Positions 13,146 to 51,874 of a DNA stretch of 64,000 bases are shown piece by piece. How positions within the stretch are numbered: position 1 is the first letter of the stretch; every line of letters starts with the position of its first letter. The translations under genes were made by a program, and so were the position numbers. This DNA is from Jaapia argillacea MUCL 33604. Its lineage: Eukaryota > Basidiomycota > Agaricomycetes > Jaapiales > Jaapiaceae. Location: contig KL197721.1 of assembly GCA_000697665.1 (NCBI GenBank), positions 604,112 through 668,111 of the forward strand, given 5' to 3'. A model generated the notes under the pieces. The model searched no databases and was not told the origin of the DNA. It saw only the letters and a list, made by a program, of their open reading frames with translations.

Positions 13146-13154
13146 CCGATCCGG

Positions 13155-14040
13155 AGAACGTCCGACCGGCAGGGAGCCTTGCTTCGTGGCAATTGCTTCA
13201 GAGCAATGAGCAATCGAGCAATTGAGCCGATTGCTCTTAAAAATAACTTGAGTAAATTGCTTCGTCAACAACAGTCGGGCTGGCATCAACCTCCGAGCAA
13301 TTTGCTTAAGGGTTTACTCTGGCTACGGACAAACTTCTTCCCTTCACTGCACTTCACAGTGAGGCACCTTCGCCTTCCCACTAACTCCTTTCTTGCTCAC
13401 GTGGCGCGTTCAACGATATATGTCCCAGTCAACGCCCACGACTCAGAAGGATGATTGGGGCGCGTGCCAGTGTGGGACATGCTTTGGGTGAGAAAATATC
13501 ATTTTATTTATCCACTATTTGTATAGGTATGGTATACATTTCTAATGAAGGAGAGGGGAGGAGGGAATTGTAAATAAACAAACTGGGCCCTTGGGACCTG
13601 GTTCACTGGGCGCAATGTGGGTGGTAATGTTAGTTAATCGGGTATGCAGGTGCAAAGGCCTGGCAATGGTGACATTCAGGAGTGTCGGCAGGGCCGGAAA
13701 AGCGCACCACGGAACAGGCGAGGAGCATCGTGGGCGAACGAGACGTCGTCGTCGTTGACGATGTTGGGACCTACATCAAATTTCCATAACGGGGAGGGGT
13801 GGTTCTGAGGTCCATGTGAACATCACGTAGTCTGTGTTGGACTTCTACGTACCCAATGAAGCGGATTGAGCAGAGCCGGGAGCCATTTGCTCGCAGCTCA
13901 TGAGAGGGTGGGAGAGAGGATCTGAGCTGGAAGCAACCACGGAGCTGCGAGCAATCGAGCAATCGAAGGGCTTGGGAATTGCTCGATTGCTCCTAAAGCA
14001 ATTTGCTCCGAGCACTGTTCCCTGTGGGTCGGACTTTCTG
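13155..14040. mobile_element. Non-autonomous DNA transposon of the KDZ-end type (886 bp)
   Basis: The element is flanked by a perfect 9-bp direct repeat CCGATCCGG (13146-13154 and 14041-14049). Its ends are inverted: the left starts AGAACGTCCGACCGGCAGGGA and the right, reversed, reads AGAAAGTCCGACCCACAGGG after one extra base. Inside each end is an array of GAGCAAT/ATTGCTC words (13187-13320 and 13940-14020). The same end sequences and word arrays bound the 6.1-kb KDZ element at 45780-51865. No open frame in the 886 bp resembles a transposase. It is therefore read as an internally deleted or MITE-like relative mobilised by a KDZ transposase. The target duplication is intact, so the insertion is fairly young. 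Confidence 0.85.
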
Positions 14041-14049
14041 CCGATCCGG

Positions 14050-17221: not shown

Positions 17222-20200
17222 TCATTTGGCCTCGCTGGCCATTGGCTGGGGTAAGTGCTCCAGTACCGAGATGATAGAGGACATCCTGGACAAATACATG
17301 GGTGTGAAGGTCGACACCCTGATGTCGACAGGTGAAGTTTGGGGTAAGGGTGGCAGAGTCATCTGAAAGGCCGGAATCGTCTGAATCCTGGCCATCGCTA
17401 TTCGGACCACAAGTGGGGTGCTGAAATTGAATTCAGTGATATAAACGGACTGGTGAACACAAAGACATACTGATAAAAGCGGCACAAATACCCGAACAGA
17501 CAGATACGATAAACCAGCCATAGTTGAAGCAGAGAGTATTGAGCCATGGCGGCTACTACTTCCCTTCTTGTAGATATCGAGAACCTCCCCGATGTATGTT
17601 CGATGAGAGTTCTTCACGATCACAAATGACCTGAGCCGCAGTGGATTGACGGCGGTCACATTCTTGCTCGCAACATTGGGCAACACTAGAGGTAATCATC
17701 AGCACAGACGGAAATAAAGTGAGCGAGAACACACACCACTATCAGGAATGATTCTCCTGATGTCCTTTGCAGTGGTCTGCCAACGCATCTCCCGAGCTGT
17801 CTTCGGTTTTGTAGTATCCGAATCGAGGTCTTGAACGATCCTCACGCGGTGAGAGGCTTCACGAATGGAGAGTTTGTCAGATCCATCGGCCTTGTTTCCA
17901 TGTAGAACACGATGTAAGGCAAACTTGGGGTCGAGTTGAATGACTCGTTCGGAACGTGTCGCAGTCCCGGATTGGTTACGTTCTCGTGCTGCGAGCATCG
18001 CTCCGACTGAAATCCTCCCAGTGGCATCGAGTAGCTTACTGGTGGCAGCGGTTTGACCTGTCTGATCAGTGGAACTCGGAGGAGGAATTGAGGGTATGGG
18101 AGGGCCTGGTGTCAGTATTGGGATGACTTTCGCTGCTTCTTCTACACTCTCCTCATAGTCCTCAGCGAGAGCGGCATACCGAGCAGCATCACGAGCAGTA
18201 GAAGCTGCAGCTTCATCGACACTACACTCCTCGTCCTCGTCAATCTCATCAGCCTCGGATTCATCGTCCTCATCGAGATTTTCATTGGCATCACTCCCCT
18301 CACTATTAGCCTTGGGCTTTCGTTTTGATCTCGATTTTAGCGAAATGATGGGTGCGAGGACGAGTGGGAGTGAGGGTATCGGCATACGTAGAAGTTCCTT
18401 GCAGATTTGCGATGTTTCCTTGAAAGCAAGCTCAACAAGTTGGTTGAATTCGCCGTCGGTGAGTCGCACATGAGCATGCCGTAACTCATCAGCTGAGAGG
18501 GGAGAGCCATCATAATCCAGCAGGTAGCCAGATTTCGATGTCCGTTCTTTCTGGCCCTTGAAATTGCCCAGGAGCAGAATTCGCTGTCGCAGCATGACAT
18601 GCTTCACGAGCTTCAGGAGCTCAGCATATGTGAAGTTTGGTAACAGCATACGGGCCAAGCCAAAGAAGTGTTCGATTAGTTCGGTTCCTAGAAGCCAAGG
18701 ACAGAAGGGCTGGTCGGGGTAATAACGGGAATATGCAAGGACGAGGAGGAGCAGGCTGTCACAGAGGCGATTGAATATATTGAAGCTTGCTGGGGAAATG
18801 AAAGAACGGGTTGTCGAGTAAAGATCCGGATACACGAGCGAAAGTTTCTTGATATGTGACCACCAAATATGGAGGAAAAATCGCGCTCGGAGAACTGCAA
18901 GGATGCGGTCCTGAGGAGTCATTCGCCGATTGAGCCAGGCATCGAATAACTCTCCTACATAACAATTAGCACTTTCGTCGTGGGGAAAATAGGCGCAAAA
19001 CCGATACATACCAAAAATGAATAGGTATACAAAAAGACCAATAAAGTCATCCTTAACTTCTCTCTTCCCATGTTCTTCAGTCGTGGCGGCAGTGAGGGCA
19101 ACAGGATGGAACATTCGCCGGGCAGCTCCGTCATCCTGCTTGTCAACATCCTGGACATCTCGAAGGACGAGACCAGCAGTCCCAGTCTCGTAGAGATCAA
19201 CGAGGGATCGGTTGACAAGATATCCACGTCCTAAACTTGCCGTATGTGTTCCATGCTGGGGCTGGTTGCGACATGTCTTCCTAGCATGCTGAGGATCAGT
19301 AATGGAGATTAAAGGGCCAGTCTTGTCGAAAACCGGGGCCTTGAGGTCGATTCCGTACAATGTATATTGGTAATGTAGATGAGGACGATCTGAAGCTTCA
19401 TTATCCATAAGGGATTGGGCAGCGAGCTCGGATGCGGCACCATCCGCAGCACATGAGATCATTCCCATATTCAGCTCGGCAGCCATCTTTTGGAGCTTCA
19501 TATAATGAGTGTGTATAAGCTCAGCATCGTCCTTGCCATTTGTAGGAATGAGTGCGATCACGATGGGCGGAACATTTGGTAATGGGATCTGTGAACAGGT
19601 CAAACTCTTCGAAGATGAGACGATTGGAGGAAATACTAACCTTGGCGAGAATAGCTCTGGTTTGCGTAGCCCAGGCATTCTCTTTCTTGATGAGGGAAAT
19701 GATCACATCTATGTCGTCGGCCTTGTCGACCTCACAATCTTGTAGTCGAAAGATGGATCCCAAGATATGGCCGCCGAAGTCATTTGAATAAGACAGCCAT
19801 TTGCGAACCTTGGTACAATCACCTCCATAGGCGACGGGCCCACAGTAGCCCAAGGAATCTGCCAGCCGTTTGACTCGAGCAACATTCTCGAAGACAAGAT
19901 GTGGGTTTTGGAGACAGTCTTCGGAGTTTGCAACCAAGCGTCTGGAATGTTCGCAGAAAGTCAGTTCCAGTTTCAGGTGATCACTTTCAAATAGCTGTAC
20001 CTGAGGTGGCGAGTGGACGGACCCCCAATTGCTTCGGAGATGATGGCATATTGCTGCGCAGAGTTCGAGCCATACGACCGCAAGAGGGTCATAAAATTCA
20101 GATAGTTTTCAGGATATCGAATGCCATGCTTCAGCTTCTTGTTGGAGTTGGTGGATCAGCGAACTTCATCTGCAAGTACTTGGCAGATCTCCGTGAACGA

Positions 20201-45770: not shown

Positions 45771-46405
45771 GAAAGCTCCAGAAAGTCTGACCCACAGGGG
45801 ATGTTGCTCCCAGCGCTTTGCTTTGAGGCAACTGAGCAATTCCCAGGCTTGCTCAATTGCTCAATTGCTCACGATGTGCAGTTCTCCAGCTCACTCTGTG
45901 AGCTGCTGCCTTCCTGTCGACCTCCCGTTGAGCAAATTGCTTGATTGCTCTGAGGTTGGACTTCATGCTCCCGCAGCTGCTTCCAATCCTCCGAACCCTC
46001 CACTCAATCACACAAATATTGCCCTTCACAACCTTCACCTCTCCATGCTGATTTGTCATCCCACTTTACTTTCACTCTCGTTTTCCACCTCTTAGAGCTC
46101 TCTATCATATACAATGTCCCTCATACTGTAACTTATGCTTTTCTATTCACTATCAAACACCTGTCCTTGCTGTCAAAACCCTCTGAGTCCTGTATCCGTG
46201 AATAAGGGAACTGGAAATTCAAGAAACAAGAACCGTTTGCAACATCTTGTTCGTGGCTGTCTTTTCAGTTTCGATGATTTGAATTGCTGATGTTGATGGA
46301 CAGTGTTTGAACAAGTATTGTTGATTTGTTCGATTCTTATCGGACGTCTTGGAGGACGACGTCGCCTTCCAATTGGTCAAGGCAACCAATGGCTGAACCC
46401 TTCCG

Positions 46406-49151
46406 ATGGAATCCACAATTGATCCACTCCATCCTCTGCAACCGTCCTCCACACTCCTTTCACAACCAAGTGCTCCTTGCCCCAATAACACAAGGGCCAT
46501 GGAAGGTATATCATGCTCGACACCAACATGTCATACGAGGGGAAACACACAGTGTTCCGGACAGCAGTGTAAGAACTGCTGTCAAAGTCTCGCAAAGGAC
46601 CAGATCCATGCTGGTCAGTCGCATCGAGTATGTGCCAACTCAAAGCACCGGCTAGCAACAGCTGTCTTGCATGCGCTCGTGGCAGAATACCCTTGATTGG
46701 CGCAAGTGGACAATCCTCACCTACCAGGCACTAATGCACCCTTAACGAACTCAAATCCCTTCCCCTCAAACCCAAAACCCTTCTCCTCAAATAATTCCTT
46801 AAGCCAATCTGCAACTAGTGCCTCAGCTCCAAGTCAACCACTTACAACATCATCAAAGACTCATGCCACACCTATTGCGATGATGTGGCAGACTGTGGGT
46901 GAAAGGTGGCTGGATAGTGCGAGGGAGGCTTCTTCAGCGAAAGATAAGATAGTCGGATGGAAGCAACGCGCAATGGTCTTTGATACCACGCTACGGACAC
47001 AGGTGAAGGTGGTTTATTGGGCAAAGGTTATTCATTACCATTGAAGCCATTGAATTGTATGCTGACCTTCCTGTTAATCAGGCTGGCCAGCAACCAATTA
47101 CAATTCCATGCCCAGTCGAAGCATTTCCAGACTTTTGTCTTGAACATGATGAAATCCTGGTCAATGCATTCCAACTCACCAACGACACAAAATTTCTCGA
47201 AGCTTATGTTGACGGGACGTGGGAGCTCCACAGTTGTACCACCTCTCGTCGTCTTGTCTCTACCGATGAACCACTTCTCTACCAGGCACTTCCAGATGGG
47301 ATACAGGGGTCTCGCATCCTCGATTCAGAGTGTCCGACATTTGACACCTTGTGGCGGAGACAACGTGGCAAGGGTCGGCTTGGTGAAGCTGAACCGATGG
47401 TACCACTGGGAGCACCAAAGCAATGGGCTAGGAGTTCTAAACTAAGTGATGCTGAGGGGTTGGCCAATGAGCGTCCACAGAAGAGGCTGCGTTCGGGCCC
47501 AATAATCGACCTTACCTACAGCACTTCTGATGACGATGACGATGACAACATGTCACAGCCTGGAGTTGATGTTTTGCGGAAGGAAAACACTCTGAAAGGA
47601 CCAAAGGTTGAACAAGATCCTCACACTTCACTCTTGCAGTCCTTCTCTCGAAATGGTCGTGGGCGTGGGCGTGGTCCATCTCAGAAGGGTGCGAAGTCTG
47701 GACGGAGAAAAGTCAGCCAGATTGATGGTGGAAAACTGTGGCCCACTGCATACGAAGCAAAAGATGTTATTGCGGGCTTCAAGACGATGGAAATCCAACT
47801 AACTGAACGACCCAAGCCCTCACTTGAAGTTCTCTTTACCCAAACATTCAACCGACCATTCATCCGCTCGACTTTCACGAGACACTGGAGTCTTTACCAA
47901 CGATTCAGCAGAAGACACCTGAACACCATCCAGCAATTGGAACATACTCCAGTAGGCTCGGAGAACAGCTTGTGGCCATCATTTGTTGCTGTAGCAGAGG
48001 CGGAAATGGATGGTTCAGGGAATCAGTATGACAGGGATGAGGATGAGGAGGATGAGGACGGGAACGAGAATGATGAGGATCCCTCTGATGCCAAAAGGTT
48101 TTGCAGGGCTGGGAATGGTGATGTGGGCCATGCTAACCCATCCAATGTGGCACCCAGTTCCAAGAGAATCGTCAGCGACCCCTCAAGTTCAAGTTCTGAT
48201 AATGATTCTGCTTCAGAGTCGGACGACGCTGCAATGGTTATTGATGCGAGGTTCCTCTGTCCATACTGTGATGAAATCTACCCCACGAACCCCTCTCGTT
48301 GCCTAAAATGCCTTCATCGAACCACGGATTCAAAAAGCCAACCTGCCCCCTTCGCTGCTCTCGGTTGCCGAAACAAGTACCACCGTATAACCATTCCCGC
48401 CACTGCAGCAACAGAGCATTGCGAGCGCCATCGATTTGAGACCCGTCTCATCCATAAAGCCATTCAAGCTGGGTGGCCCAGAAAAATCAACTTTGAAGCA
48501 TTACAGCACCGTATAGTCAGCCTTTTGAAGCCAACTCTTGGACCCATTGTCGATAATCCATGTCAAAGCTCGCTTTTCCTTCAGCTAGTTGCAAAAGCAA
48601 GGAAACATGGGTCGATGCACACATTTGGGGCCAATGGTGAGTATGGAATGCTCAGAGAGGTTGGGGTTGGCTAGTATGTTCCTACACCCTGATCTTTGTT
48701 GCTCAATCTAATACCGTTTCTTTGTAGCTATGGACCGAAGGCTTATCAAATCATCTTCTTTGCCATTCAGCAGATGTTCCCAAAACTTGAGGCACTTACC
48801 TTCGAGCATTACGACCCTGAATCCGACACAACCATCTGAGTTCCTGGCAAGTCGTTTATTGGACGGGTACTTGTACCTGAAGTTGCCATTCACCTGATCG
48901 AAACCGACCTCCAAATATCTTGGAAGAATGCCATTCAGACGAAGAAAGAGAGTGATTCATATGGATATCTTGCATTCCCTGACAATGGCAGCGACAACGA
49001 TGACGATGACGACGAAACTCCTTCCATCCCTTCCATCTCTTCAGTTCCTTCCGTCCCTTCGTTCCAGCAACAACCAGTGAAGCGCAAGGGTCTCACTCCG
49101 CCTCTGTTCATGGCATCTGGGATGAAAGACGATGCCATCGAAATTGATTGA
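46406..49151 (+). pseudogene. RTC4-like domain protein carried by the KDZ transposon
   Basis: Three segments, 46406-47026, 47082-48673 and 48728-49151. The N-terminus has a Cys/His-rich patch (CSTPTCHTRGNTQCSGQQCK, then NCC and C..SKHRLA). The middle holds IIDLTYSTSDDDDDD, a typical SUMO-interacting motif, and GRGRGRG. The RTC4 domain follows: RFLCPYCDEIYPTNPSRC, CERHRFETRLIHKAIQAGWP, KINFEALQHRIVSLLKPTLG and YYGPKAYQIIFFAIQQMFP. It ends near FIGRVLVPEVAIHLIETDLQ and SYGYLAFPD. RTC4 was named in yeast for restriction of telomere capping; its molecular role is unclear. Two in-frame TGA codons (46694-46696 and 48837-48839) stand where CGA would fit, so this copy is probably dead or read only in part. 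Confidence 0.8.
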
Positions 49152-49252
49152 TAGTGCTACCCAATATCTGGATTGGTATCGTATTTTGACTCATATAGAC
49201 ACGATTAATTCTCTCCTCATGGAGCCTCTAATTTTAGAGTACATAACTCGAA

Positions 49253-51497
49253 CTACACCTTCCCTAGTAGTTCCTCCTGTGGAATATTGTATGGTGCCTT
49301 GTGTCGTCGTCGTAGATCCATCACAATAAACTCATTCCTCAGCTTGATCATTTCATCCAAAAAGAAATTATACCTATCCACCCTCATTTCACGTACAATC
49401 GCCTGAAATCCTCCAAACCACGCATTTGTAATCTCTGCAGCAGAGGAGTTGAAGCGCCACTGACCATCTGTAGTTGTCAGTTCGGGCCAGTTAATGGGGT
49501 TGCAATGGGAGTTGCAAAAGTCATCCGATTCCTTGTGTTTCGTCTTCATGTGAAACACATCAACAGGGAGGGCGCATCGCTGGAAATGAGTATCTTTCTC
49601 TGATTCAATAACCTTTTTGACATTGCAGTTATTGTCATGATAGATCACCCCGGGAAGGGATTCGGAGGTGGGGAATAATGTACAATAAAAGATCTGCCAA
49701 AGAATGTAAGAATGGGCACGATCATCGATGAGACCAATGAGAGATGGGAGATCAATCCTTACCTGGACTCCATTAGGGCCCTCAGAACCGTAGAATGTTG
49801 CCCATCCCAAGATAACACCACATGTCGCAACACAGAGCTCTTCGTTGTGAGTTCGCCGACGCCCAAACTCAGCATGAAATTTGCGGTTGCCATCATCAGG
49901 CTTGCCACTACATTGGTCATTGATGCCATCAGTTGATTGAGATGCCAGTTCATCTGCGGCAATTGAACCCCCATCTTCGGTGCGTAACAAGTCTTCAGTC
50001 TGAGCAATCTTAAGCCGTTTGAGTCGCTGTTGTAACTGGAACATTGCGTGGTTCTGTTTGTTATGTTGTAGTTCAAGGGCTCGGTGTTCCGCTGCTGTGC
50101 ATGTCTGATGGCCACTCTCGACGAAGTTTGGACATTCAACAACTACGCATTTTGAGCTCAAGCCTGAATGGTTGTCGCAATATGTTGCTCATTGGTTTGG
50201 AAGTGAAGCTTTGCAATCATGAACGCAGCAACATGGATGTCCAAGAGCGATTCCATTGGTCACAACTACTCTCAAGGCCCCTATAAATATATAATGCAAT
50301 GAGCATGATGACACGCAACTGTGAAGGAAGCTACTCACACGATTCACCATTTGGAAGAGTCCTCAACTCGCAACACAAATCATATGCGTGATTCCAATGT
50401 GGTTGACCAGGTCCAACCATCACAGCATTTCTGGCTTCAATCACCTGAGATAAACGGATGGCTTGTGATGGTCCATTGTGGTCCAAAGAAAGTGTTGTGT
50501 GATGATCATCACAATCGAGGAGAAGGCTGTACAAGAAAAAGCCATCCCAAACATTCTCGCAATCCATTTCCAAACTATATGACCATGGTACAGGTAATCG
50601 TGATGCAGTAGACGGGGATTCGAGGTTGTAGACACAAGCACAATTTGTAGCTGATGCCCTGCGGAAGCATCAGTTATATCCAAGAGTTTAGAGCAGAGAA
50701 CGTACCATGTACAGACCATCATATATTGGAAGCGCTCACAAAGATTTGTGTCAAAGTAAAATCGTTTCGAGCCTTGTAAGACGTAGGGAACACCAGGATA
50801 GTATGTCCTCTGAGTGGCGCCGTCGTGAACATAGTAATTGGGGTGATAGCGAGTAGCACAGCCTACGCAACAAGGGGTAAGCTCATTGATTCAATGGTTG
50901 ACTATTGAGAAACTCACGATGACAGTAAAGCGAATTTGACCAGGCCGGGAGAGTGCCAAAATTGCTCATAAACAACATTACTTCATGTTGCGAACGTTCC
51001 GTCAATTCGGGAGCACAGAGCAGGTCGAGACAGACACGTGTCAGAGGCCCAATATCATAGAATCCTGAAATGAGAGCAATTGTGAGTAGGTGAGACACTG
51101 AGAAGGAGATAGGAAGCACCGAAAACTCACCAATTTGGTGTTGGAGGCCATATTTGAGGAAGTAGTGTAGATTTCGACCATTCTGCAGTGGGCTACTATA
51201 CTCCGGCCCACCATCGGCATGACCTTCACCCAAACCCCTCTCTAACCAAATGAAAGGGGACAGTTTCTCCCACAACTTCACAATCCCTTGCTCATGTGAT
51301 CCTAAGACATCGCACAGAAACCCACTCACATCTTTGCTGAGAGTTGTCGGGGGGCGAGATACCTCTGGTTGGACGCCGCGAGATATTTGGGAGCGAAGAC
51401 GGTTGACAAGATCAATAAAAAGCATGATATCAGAGAGAGAATAAGCCCTGAGGAGGTCTGGGGAGGAATGGAGAGTGGAGAATAGGTTGTCCACCAT
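49253..51497 (-). CDS. KDZ transposase with CxC5 and CxC6 cysteine clusters
   Basis: It starts at ATG 51497 (MVDNLFSTLHSSPDLLRAYS). The CxC5 cluster reads RVCLDLLCAPEL ... SNSLYCHRCATRYHPNYYVH, followed by RTYYPGVPYVLQGSKRFYFD and CERFQYMMVCTW across an intron. The CxC6 cluster reads CVVVECPNFVESGHQTCTAAEHR ahead of AMFQLQQRLKR. The transposase core has ELCVATCGVILGWATFYGSE, GVIYHDNNCNV (Asp), LPVDVFHMKTKHKESDDFC and QWRFNSSAAEITNAWFGGFQ, then AIVREMRVDRYNFFLDEM. These are the hallmark blocks of KDZ transposases. At least five exons are joined by GT-AG introns, with clear splices at about 50921, 50705 and 49762. No in-frame break was found in the blocks checked. Confidence 0.85.
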
Positions 51498-51874
51498 TGC
51501 AGATAGGGAGGGCAAAATGAGGGAATGGGACCATGTATGTCGAGTGAAATGCCCTGCAGGAGAGGGTTAATGTTGGCAGGACAATGCATGGAGAAAGTGT
51601 GGCCACGATGGCAACATTTCATCACACACTTCCATCTTTGGCAACTCTCGGCGGTTGCGTAATCTGGAGCAAAGTCCTTGTAGGTAGGAGCGAACGACGA
51701 AGAGCAAATTGCTTGGATACCGACAACGTTTGCTTTCAGCTTCAGAGACACCCTCTGAGCATTTTGACTCCAGGAAACAGTCGCGAGCAAATCACTCACG
51801 CGGATTGCTTTGTTGCTTTGAAGCAATTGCTACAGAGCAAAGCTCCCTGCCAGTCAGATGTTCTCGAAAGCTCC

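Follow-up and report, generated by a model that had tools for sequence, protein, structure and literature searches.

A probable two-gene transposon with CxC5/CxC6 zinc clusters and an RTC4-bearing partner gene in Jaapia argillacea

The locus described here lies in a window of 64,000 nucleotides from the basidiomycete Jaapia argillacea MUCL 33604 (assembly GCA_000697665.1, contig KL197721.1, positions 604,112 to 668,111; G000:C13:604112-668111 in our labelling, from which the C numbers used below are taken). It holds a complete transposon of 6,087 bp (45779-51865, not assigned to a strand) with the ends CAGAAAGTCTGACCCACAGGGG and GAGAACATCTGACTGGCAGGGA, flanked by the target site duplication GAAAGCTC on the left (45771-45778) and on the right (51866-51873). 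Inside, a transposase with CxC5 and CxC6 clusters on the minus strand faces a gene with an RTC4 domain on the plus strand. An earlier note, made from the letters of this DNA, had described such an arrangement, and as an observation it was confirmed as a whole: inverted ends, a direct duplication, CxC5, CxC6 and RTC4 are all present. All copies compared with the window element come from this one genome (43.7 Mb, 95 contigs).

The boundaries needed a small correction. The note had given the element as 45780-51865, which is real and right at its end, but starts one base pair too late, and had reported a perfect 9-bp target duplication. The 9-bp repeat GAAAGCTCC does literally occur twice, once at each end of the element. 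We rejected this length in favour of 8 bp because in two short copies, one on C26 and one in the window, the ninth base differs between the two sides; in the window element it is the element's own first base, C. Among 51 pairs of equal 8-mers, the window element ranked first, with 15 of 22 end bases matching against 9 for the next pair. As that ranking included an end motif derived from the window and C26 copies, it is worth adding that a motif-free ranking of 64 pairs again put the element first (15 of 24 end bases against 13). Taken alone, the inverted repeat of the window copy is only modestly above chance, and its boundaries are secure because other copies share its ends. The subterminal word arrays claimed earlier also held: GAGCAA/TTGCTC occurs 7 and 4 times within the terminal 300 bp, which none of the 182 interior pairs matched. 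Words common to both ends exceeded interior pairs in C13 (the window element), C40, C9 and C4 (0 of 172-182 pairs) and did not do so in C52 (10/179), C63 (11/177) and C8 (20/169).

Profile searches bore out the domains that had been read by eye. In the transposase, PF18718 (CxC5) matched in two exons (50705-51038, minus strand; E-values 2.3e-16 and 2.2e-06) and PF18721 (CxC6) matched at 3.2e-08, all over the cut-off, while in the facing gene PF14474 (RTC4) scored 32.5 bits (1.1e-07) against a gathering score of 23.7. The order along the transposase is CxC5, a block with a conserved Asp, CxC6, and motifs with a conserved Asp and Glu. The block proposed to hold the first catalytic Asp, followed by CxC6, spans 50099-50275 (minus strand), and HDNNC (proposed second Asp), FH...H...C...C and SSAAE (proposed Glu) lie at 49385-49648 on the same strand. 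In the block VV.DG.TIGHPCC beside CxC6, the Asp is kept in 10 of 12 aligned copies and also in C14:469k, the exceptions being the window copy, with Asn, and C52, which is out of frame in the alignment at that point. Similarly, HDNNC/YDNNC, VDVFH...KH...C...CNP and FNSSAAE are conserved across the core alignment with few exceptions. We propose that the conserved Asp, Asp and Glu may form the catalytic triad and that CxC6 would be an insertion within the fold.

The window copy itself looks decayed, because a TGA interrupts its RTC4 domain, another TGA stands between the cysteines of CxC6, and Asn replaces the Asp held by other copies. It is probably inactive. The stop within CxC6 occurs at nearly one position in three copies (window 50099-50275, G000:C4:1508704-1508898 and G000:C14:665644-665835), which might reflect repeated decay at one codon.

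The partner gene is built of several modules, all on the plus strand. It begins with a cysteine cluster, CX4C...CX4CX2CC...C..H (46514-46651), for which Pfam recognised no family. The cysteine-rich N-terminus named by the note is thus a recurrent feature, present in 8 copies including that of the window: a scan of 15 stretches, which covered 14 CxC5/CxC6 loci plus the host gene described below, gave the pattern in 8 of them and on none of the 15 opposite strands. A middle region common to partner copies (47094-47363) is followed by the stretch PIIDLTYSTSDDDDDD (47499-47546), which resembles a SUMO-interacting motif; the note's claim of such a motif stands as far as a resemblance goes and no further. 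Comparable hydrophobic-acidic stretches occur in C63, C52, C40, C8, C14:469k and C9. The next part, which we call the W module (WP..Y....GF..M...F...F....STF..H, 47736-47993), is predicted to be helical. Its single-sequence AlphaFold2 model is of low confidence (mean predicted local distance difference test score, pLDDT, 59.6) and had no match at E below 3 in a search of PDB structures, and Pfam gave only two stray single-member matches for it, the best at 0.0018. A zinc-like CPYCDE region shared with the host RTC4 gene (48252-48671) precedes the RTC4 domain with its in-frame TGA (48729-48986); a PDB sequence search with both together found no match below E 0.24. The gene ends in an acidic tail, DDAIEID (49128-49148), with the counterparts IIIIDD in C63, IIEIDD in C40, PIVIDD in C52 and LIIIDDD in C9.

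Both ends were found in seven larger copies: the window element, C40 (6411 bp, 15 of 22 end bases against 11 for the next candidate), C52 (6210 bp, 15 of 22 against 11) and C63 (6151 bp, 15 of 22 against 9), the latter three in the motif-including ranking, and C8 (5297 bp, duplication TCTTGGGT, 17 of 24 against 14), C4 (6264 bp, duplication GACGTTCC, 19 of 24 against 11) and C9 (5773 bp, 16 of 24 against 12) in the motif-free one. Their polarity is fixed: in all seven, the partner side starts with CA and the transposase side with GAG. Six carry perfect 8-bp duplications, and in C9 7 of the 8 bases agree. Short copies share these ends. One on C26 is gene-less and 886 bp long, with the 8-bp duplication GACTCATA (18 of 22 end bases against 9), and the non-autonomous copy in the window is 887 bp long (13154-14040, minus strand; duplication CCGATCCG at 13146-13153 and 14041-14048) and related to it over its whole length. 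The comparison of ends and duplications that the note had called for therefore yields shared ends and, in 8 of 10 copies with both ends, perfect 8-bp duplications. On C16, one single end was seen.

A further copy, C14:666k (G000:C14:663529-670600), is 92% identical to the C9 element and is split by some 2.3 kb that do not belong to it, which may be read as a sign of fairly recent mobility and of nesting. Two short gene-less copies with common ends and 8-bp duplications, together with the 92% identity between C14:666k and C9, are what a mobile family is expected to show.

The ends also bear on a proposal made for Pleurotus ostreatus (PMC7641404), according to which CxC5/CxC6 regions would be accessories of Copia retrotransposons. 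The part of that paper available to us reports their co-location with Copia elements. In J. argillacea, however, nine copies have ends of their own and duplications of 7-8 bp, and the protein bears transposase-like motifs of its own, so we regard this explanation as highly improbable here.

The pairing of the two genes recurs. PF14474 matched at least seven times in the genome, the search giving a lower bound, and 7 of 7 matches were over the cut-off; tblastn and a model derived from four copies each added an eighth, on C28. In seven of the eight cases a CxC5 or CxC6 match stands at a distance of 1028-1248 bp, always on the opposite strand and tail to tail. The match on C48 belongs to a host gene between argininosuccinate synthase and aspartyl protease, and no CxC5/CxC6 match was found nearby. 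This host gene shares with the transposon partner an RTC4 domain, which passes the Pfam cut-off, and the region before it, here CPWCDE, but shows neither the cysteine cluster nor the W module.

The existence of a host RTC4 gene leaves room for a chance capture, in which one element would have picked it up once and without meaning. This was the outcome the note foresaw if other copies with the same ends never contained RTC4. We found RTC4 between both ends in 5 of the 7 larger copies (C13, C40, C52, C63 and C9), and 7 loci show the pair, alike in orientation and spacing. The domain has been kept although the window partner, aligned on its main exon, is only 30-36% identical to five others, and the ratio of non-synonymous to synonymous divergence (dN/dS) is far below 1 in the closest pair. 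The recurrence of the RTC4-CxC5/CxC6 pairing leads us to reject chance capture in this genome as very improbable.

The gene recurs with the transposase inside complete elements, and the word cargo, used in the note, undersells what appears to be a resident second gene. Of the 16 CxC5/CxC6 loci, all but C10, C20, C40:254k and C40:274k gave a partner, some of these 12 on weak single W-module scores (C14:469k, 0.0059; C17, 0.0026), and the CPYC zinc-like region and RTC4 domain are present at 7 of the 12. In C8, about 0.3 kb separates the end of the facing gene from the transposase core, and RTC4 gave no match in that gene. Over 81 columns, hhalign aligned the gene's W module with the one in partners that bear RTC4 (score 80, against at most 21.8 in 30 shuffles; probability 96.4), which makes the versions with and without RTC4 homologous, and its N-terminus bears the same CX4C...CX4CX2CC cluster. 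The partner at C14:469k is a relative of that in C8, 52% identical in the main aligned stretch, and in C4 the W module alone was detected. As read from these copies, RTC4 is one module of the resident partner gene; some lineages have it, and in others it was not found, C8 and C4 keeping partner parts without it.

We estimated age and constraint from the closest pair, C52/C63. All six segments, taken from both genes, have a synonymous divergence (dS) of 1.2-2.2, and the proportion of synonymous differences (pS) is 0.60-0.71 in the four partner and two transposase segments. For the partner, the proportion of non-synonymous differences (pN) is 0.14-0.20 and dN/dS 0.09-0.14; for the transposase, the figures are 0.04-0.06 and 0.03-0.04. 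Because synonymous divergence is similar in both, the two genes look about equally old, and both look constrained, the transposase more so. For the other five pairs, with two partner and two transposase segments each, pN/pS is 0.39-0.52 in the partner and 0.16-0.28 in the transposase.

In the transposase tree, RTC4-bearing copies do not form one clade. Two changes are needed, a number as low as this being reached in 12 of 500 label shuffles, and they would fit either an early presence followed by loss or two gains. The RTC4 tree is well supported solely for C52/C63 and C9/C14:666k, and the placement of the host gene in it is unsure.

The note had called the element a KDZ transposon, and this label stands only in part. 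The CxC domains and 8-bp duplications agree with it. A scan of five transposase open reading frames (ORFs) of the window gave no match at E<=1 to PF18758, the KDZ catalytic core, and no TET/JBP partner was found. Aligned with hhalign against eight KDZ cores of the same genome, the transposase core gave weak profile similarity (score 27.9 against at most 15.1 in 30 column shuffles; probability 32%, P 4.7e-4), in an alignment that pairs YD..C, FH and E. This suggests, short of proof, that the transposase may be remotely kin to KDZ; we do not class the element as KDZ, and the CxC5/CxC6 lineage is probably related to, yet distinct from, the KDZ transposases as defined by Pfam. The transposase exon had no match among viral contigs.

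The KDZ elements of the same genome account for 71 matches at 41 loci, all of them more than 5 kb away from each of the 38 CxC5/CxC6 matches. There are 25 TET/JBP matches, 17 over the cut-off; 18 of the 25 lie within 3 kb of KDZ, 18 of 18 on the same strand, and none within 5 kb of CxC5/CxC6. Conversely, 0 of the 8 RTC4 matches are within 5 kb of KDZ. Since KDZ goes with TET on the same strand and CxC5/CxC6 with RTC4 on the opposite strand, we distinguish two element classes with different partners in different orientations. The spacing of the KDZ-TET pairs is itself regular, the TET/JBP matches at the 18 loci lying 1.1-2.1 kb from KDZ.

We conclude with high confidence that the locus is a two-gene DNA transposon of a CxC5/CxC6 lineage whose resident partner gene faces the transposase tail to tail. 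This confidence covers the element and the partner's residence, not the partner's role. As an interpretation, the note is therefore supported in its recurrent RTC4 partner and only partly in its KDZ label.

Several points weigh against this conclusion. The evidence comes from one fungal genome. Ends were sought at 12 CxC5/CxC6 loci and not found at five of them (C14:666k, C28, C57, C17 and C14:469k), the search at C57, C17 and C14:469k being limited to the end motif and to sequence pieces around those loci. The other four loci, C10, C20 and the fragments C40:254k and C40:274k, received a motif scan only, which gave one possible end near C40:253.4k, and we count them as adverse too. On C15, a short copy of 211 bp shows both ends yet lacks a matching duplication. 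RTC4 was not found in C8 and C4 (2 of the 7 copies with ends) or at C57, C17 and C14:469k; it is therefore not needed in every lineage. At C57 (49300-53250) and C17 (185000-190800), partner and transposase share a strand, the partner lying several kilobases upstream, and the sequence pieces examined showed no RTC4. A partner-like ORF of 433 amino acids (C1:3193596-3194894) is solitary, as 6.5 kb of sequence showed neither transposase nor RTC4. It has both the middle region and the W module, matches the C63 partner by blastp at 2e-26, and might be a partner that was domesticated or a related host gene. Purifying selection could be usefully measured for one pair, 19 of 20 dS values being saturated in the other five. 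Finally, the catalytic triad, which in a DDE/D transposase would sit in an RNase H fold, rests on sequence inference: the transposase exon, folded with AlphaFold2 without an alignment, gave a core model with a mean pLDDT of 43, which is uninformative and was not used.

The CxC5/CxC6 protein would act by cut-and-paste, cutting and joining DNA. The partner would be a nuclear accessory protein: its cysteine cluster and W module would let it bind either element DNA or the transposase, while through its SIM-like (SUMO-interacting motif-like) and RTC4 parts it would interact with chromatin or DNA-end factors of the host as the element transposes. We put forward this accessory role tentatively, as a possibility that falls short of an even chance, alongside silencing evasion and other roles. 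A partner that counters host chromatin silencing instead of serving the transposition reaction, as TET/JBP is thought to do for KDZ, would suit the SIM-like stretches and the RTC4 domain. The KDZ elements of this genome, moreover, carry TET/JBP (18 of 25 TET matches near KDZ), and none is near CxC5/CxC6. Pfam, however, recognises no enzyme domain in the partner, and copies without RTC4 exist (C8, C4), so that we consider silencing evasion somewhat unlikely. By analogy with the yeast gene, which has a genetic link to telomere capping, RTC4 might also protect ends or damp a checkpoint at excision breaks. The portion of PMC6162548 available to us places Rtc4 in the nucleus and cytosol and gives genetic links to telomere maintenance, but describes its function as unclear. 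The case being one of analogy, end protection seems to us quite unlikely.

A broader possibility, which we regard as doubtful, is that CxC5/CxC6 elements form a separate, non-KDZ lineage of two-gene transposons and that their RTC4 partner would be a general factor handling chromatin or broken DNA ends in transposition. If so, most multicopy RTC4 genes in Basidiomycota would be transposon genes, and the function of host RTC4 could be studied through them. In any case, full element boundaries and a resident second gene can now be assigned to CxC5/CxC6, a multicopy domain pair named in Pfam, and the role of RTC4, a domain of unclear function, becomes testable in a mobile setting. Caution is due where fungal annotations list expanded RTC4 families, whose members may be transposon genes.

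Elsewhere in the window, an ORF of 667 amino acids at 17699-19702 (minus strand) has no Pfam match at E 0.01 and gives the impression of a transposase of another family.

KDZ and TET are the subject of a paper by Iyer and colleagues. Compared with KDZ elements (Kyakuja, Dileera, Zisupton) bearing TET/JBP, the element described here is alike in its CxC zinc clusters, in carrying a second gene and in a similar spacing of YD..C, FH and E. Duplications of 8 bp are given for Zisupton and Dileera in the part of PMC12730594 available to us, and duplications of 8 bp and of 4-8 bp for Cryptococcus KDZ elements in the corresponding part of PMC12810828. The differences are that the window transposase is without PF18758 and that its partner is of the RTC4 type and convergent, whereas TET lies on the same strand. 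The subject of PMC12730594, as far as its available text goes, is TET-bearing transposons, and the terms RTC4, CxC5 and CxC6 are absent from that text; no KDZ or CxC term occurs in the accessible portion of PMC9674265. In the literature searched, which omits most subscription papers, we found no paper pairing RTC4 with a transposase; three mention RTC4 together with transposons, PMC9370660 among them.

Another close counterpart, by description, is the 6,792-bp CxC5/CxC6 insert in MSH4 of P. ostreatus, with an ORF of 739 amino acids (PMC7641404, in its available part). It is similar in size, has a CxC5/CxC6 ORF and is multicopy in its genome, and its authors found no KDZ core within the expected distance; unlike our element, it is described with a Copia association. 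The main text of that paper lacks the terms RTC4, target site and inverted repeat. Multicopy RTC4 in Basidiomycota is also seen in rust fungi, with 45 proteins in Puccinia novopanici and 15 in P. sorghi, which the authors, in the portion of PMC9370660 available to us, link to the DNA-damage response. Set beside one another, TET with KDZ and RTC4 with CxC5/CxC6 suggest that different transposons met a similar problem with different partners.

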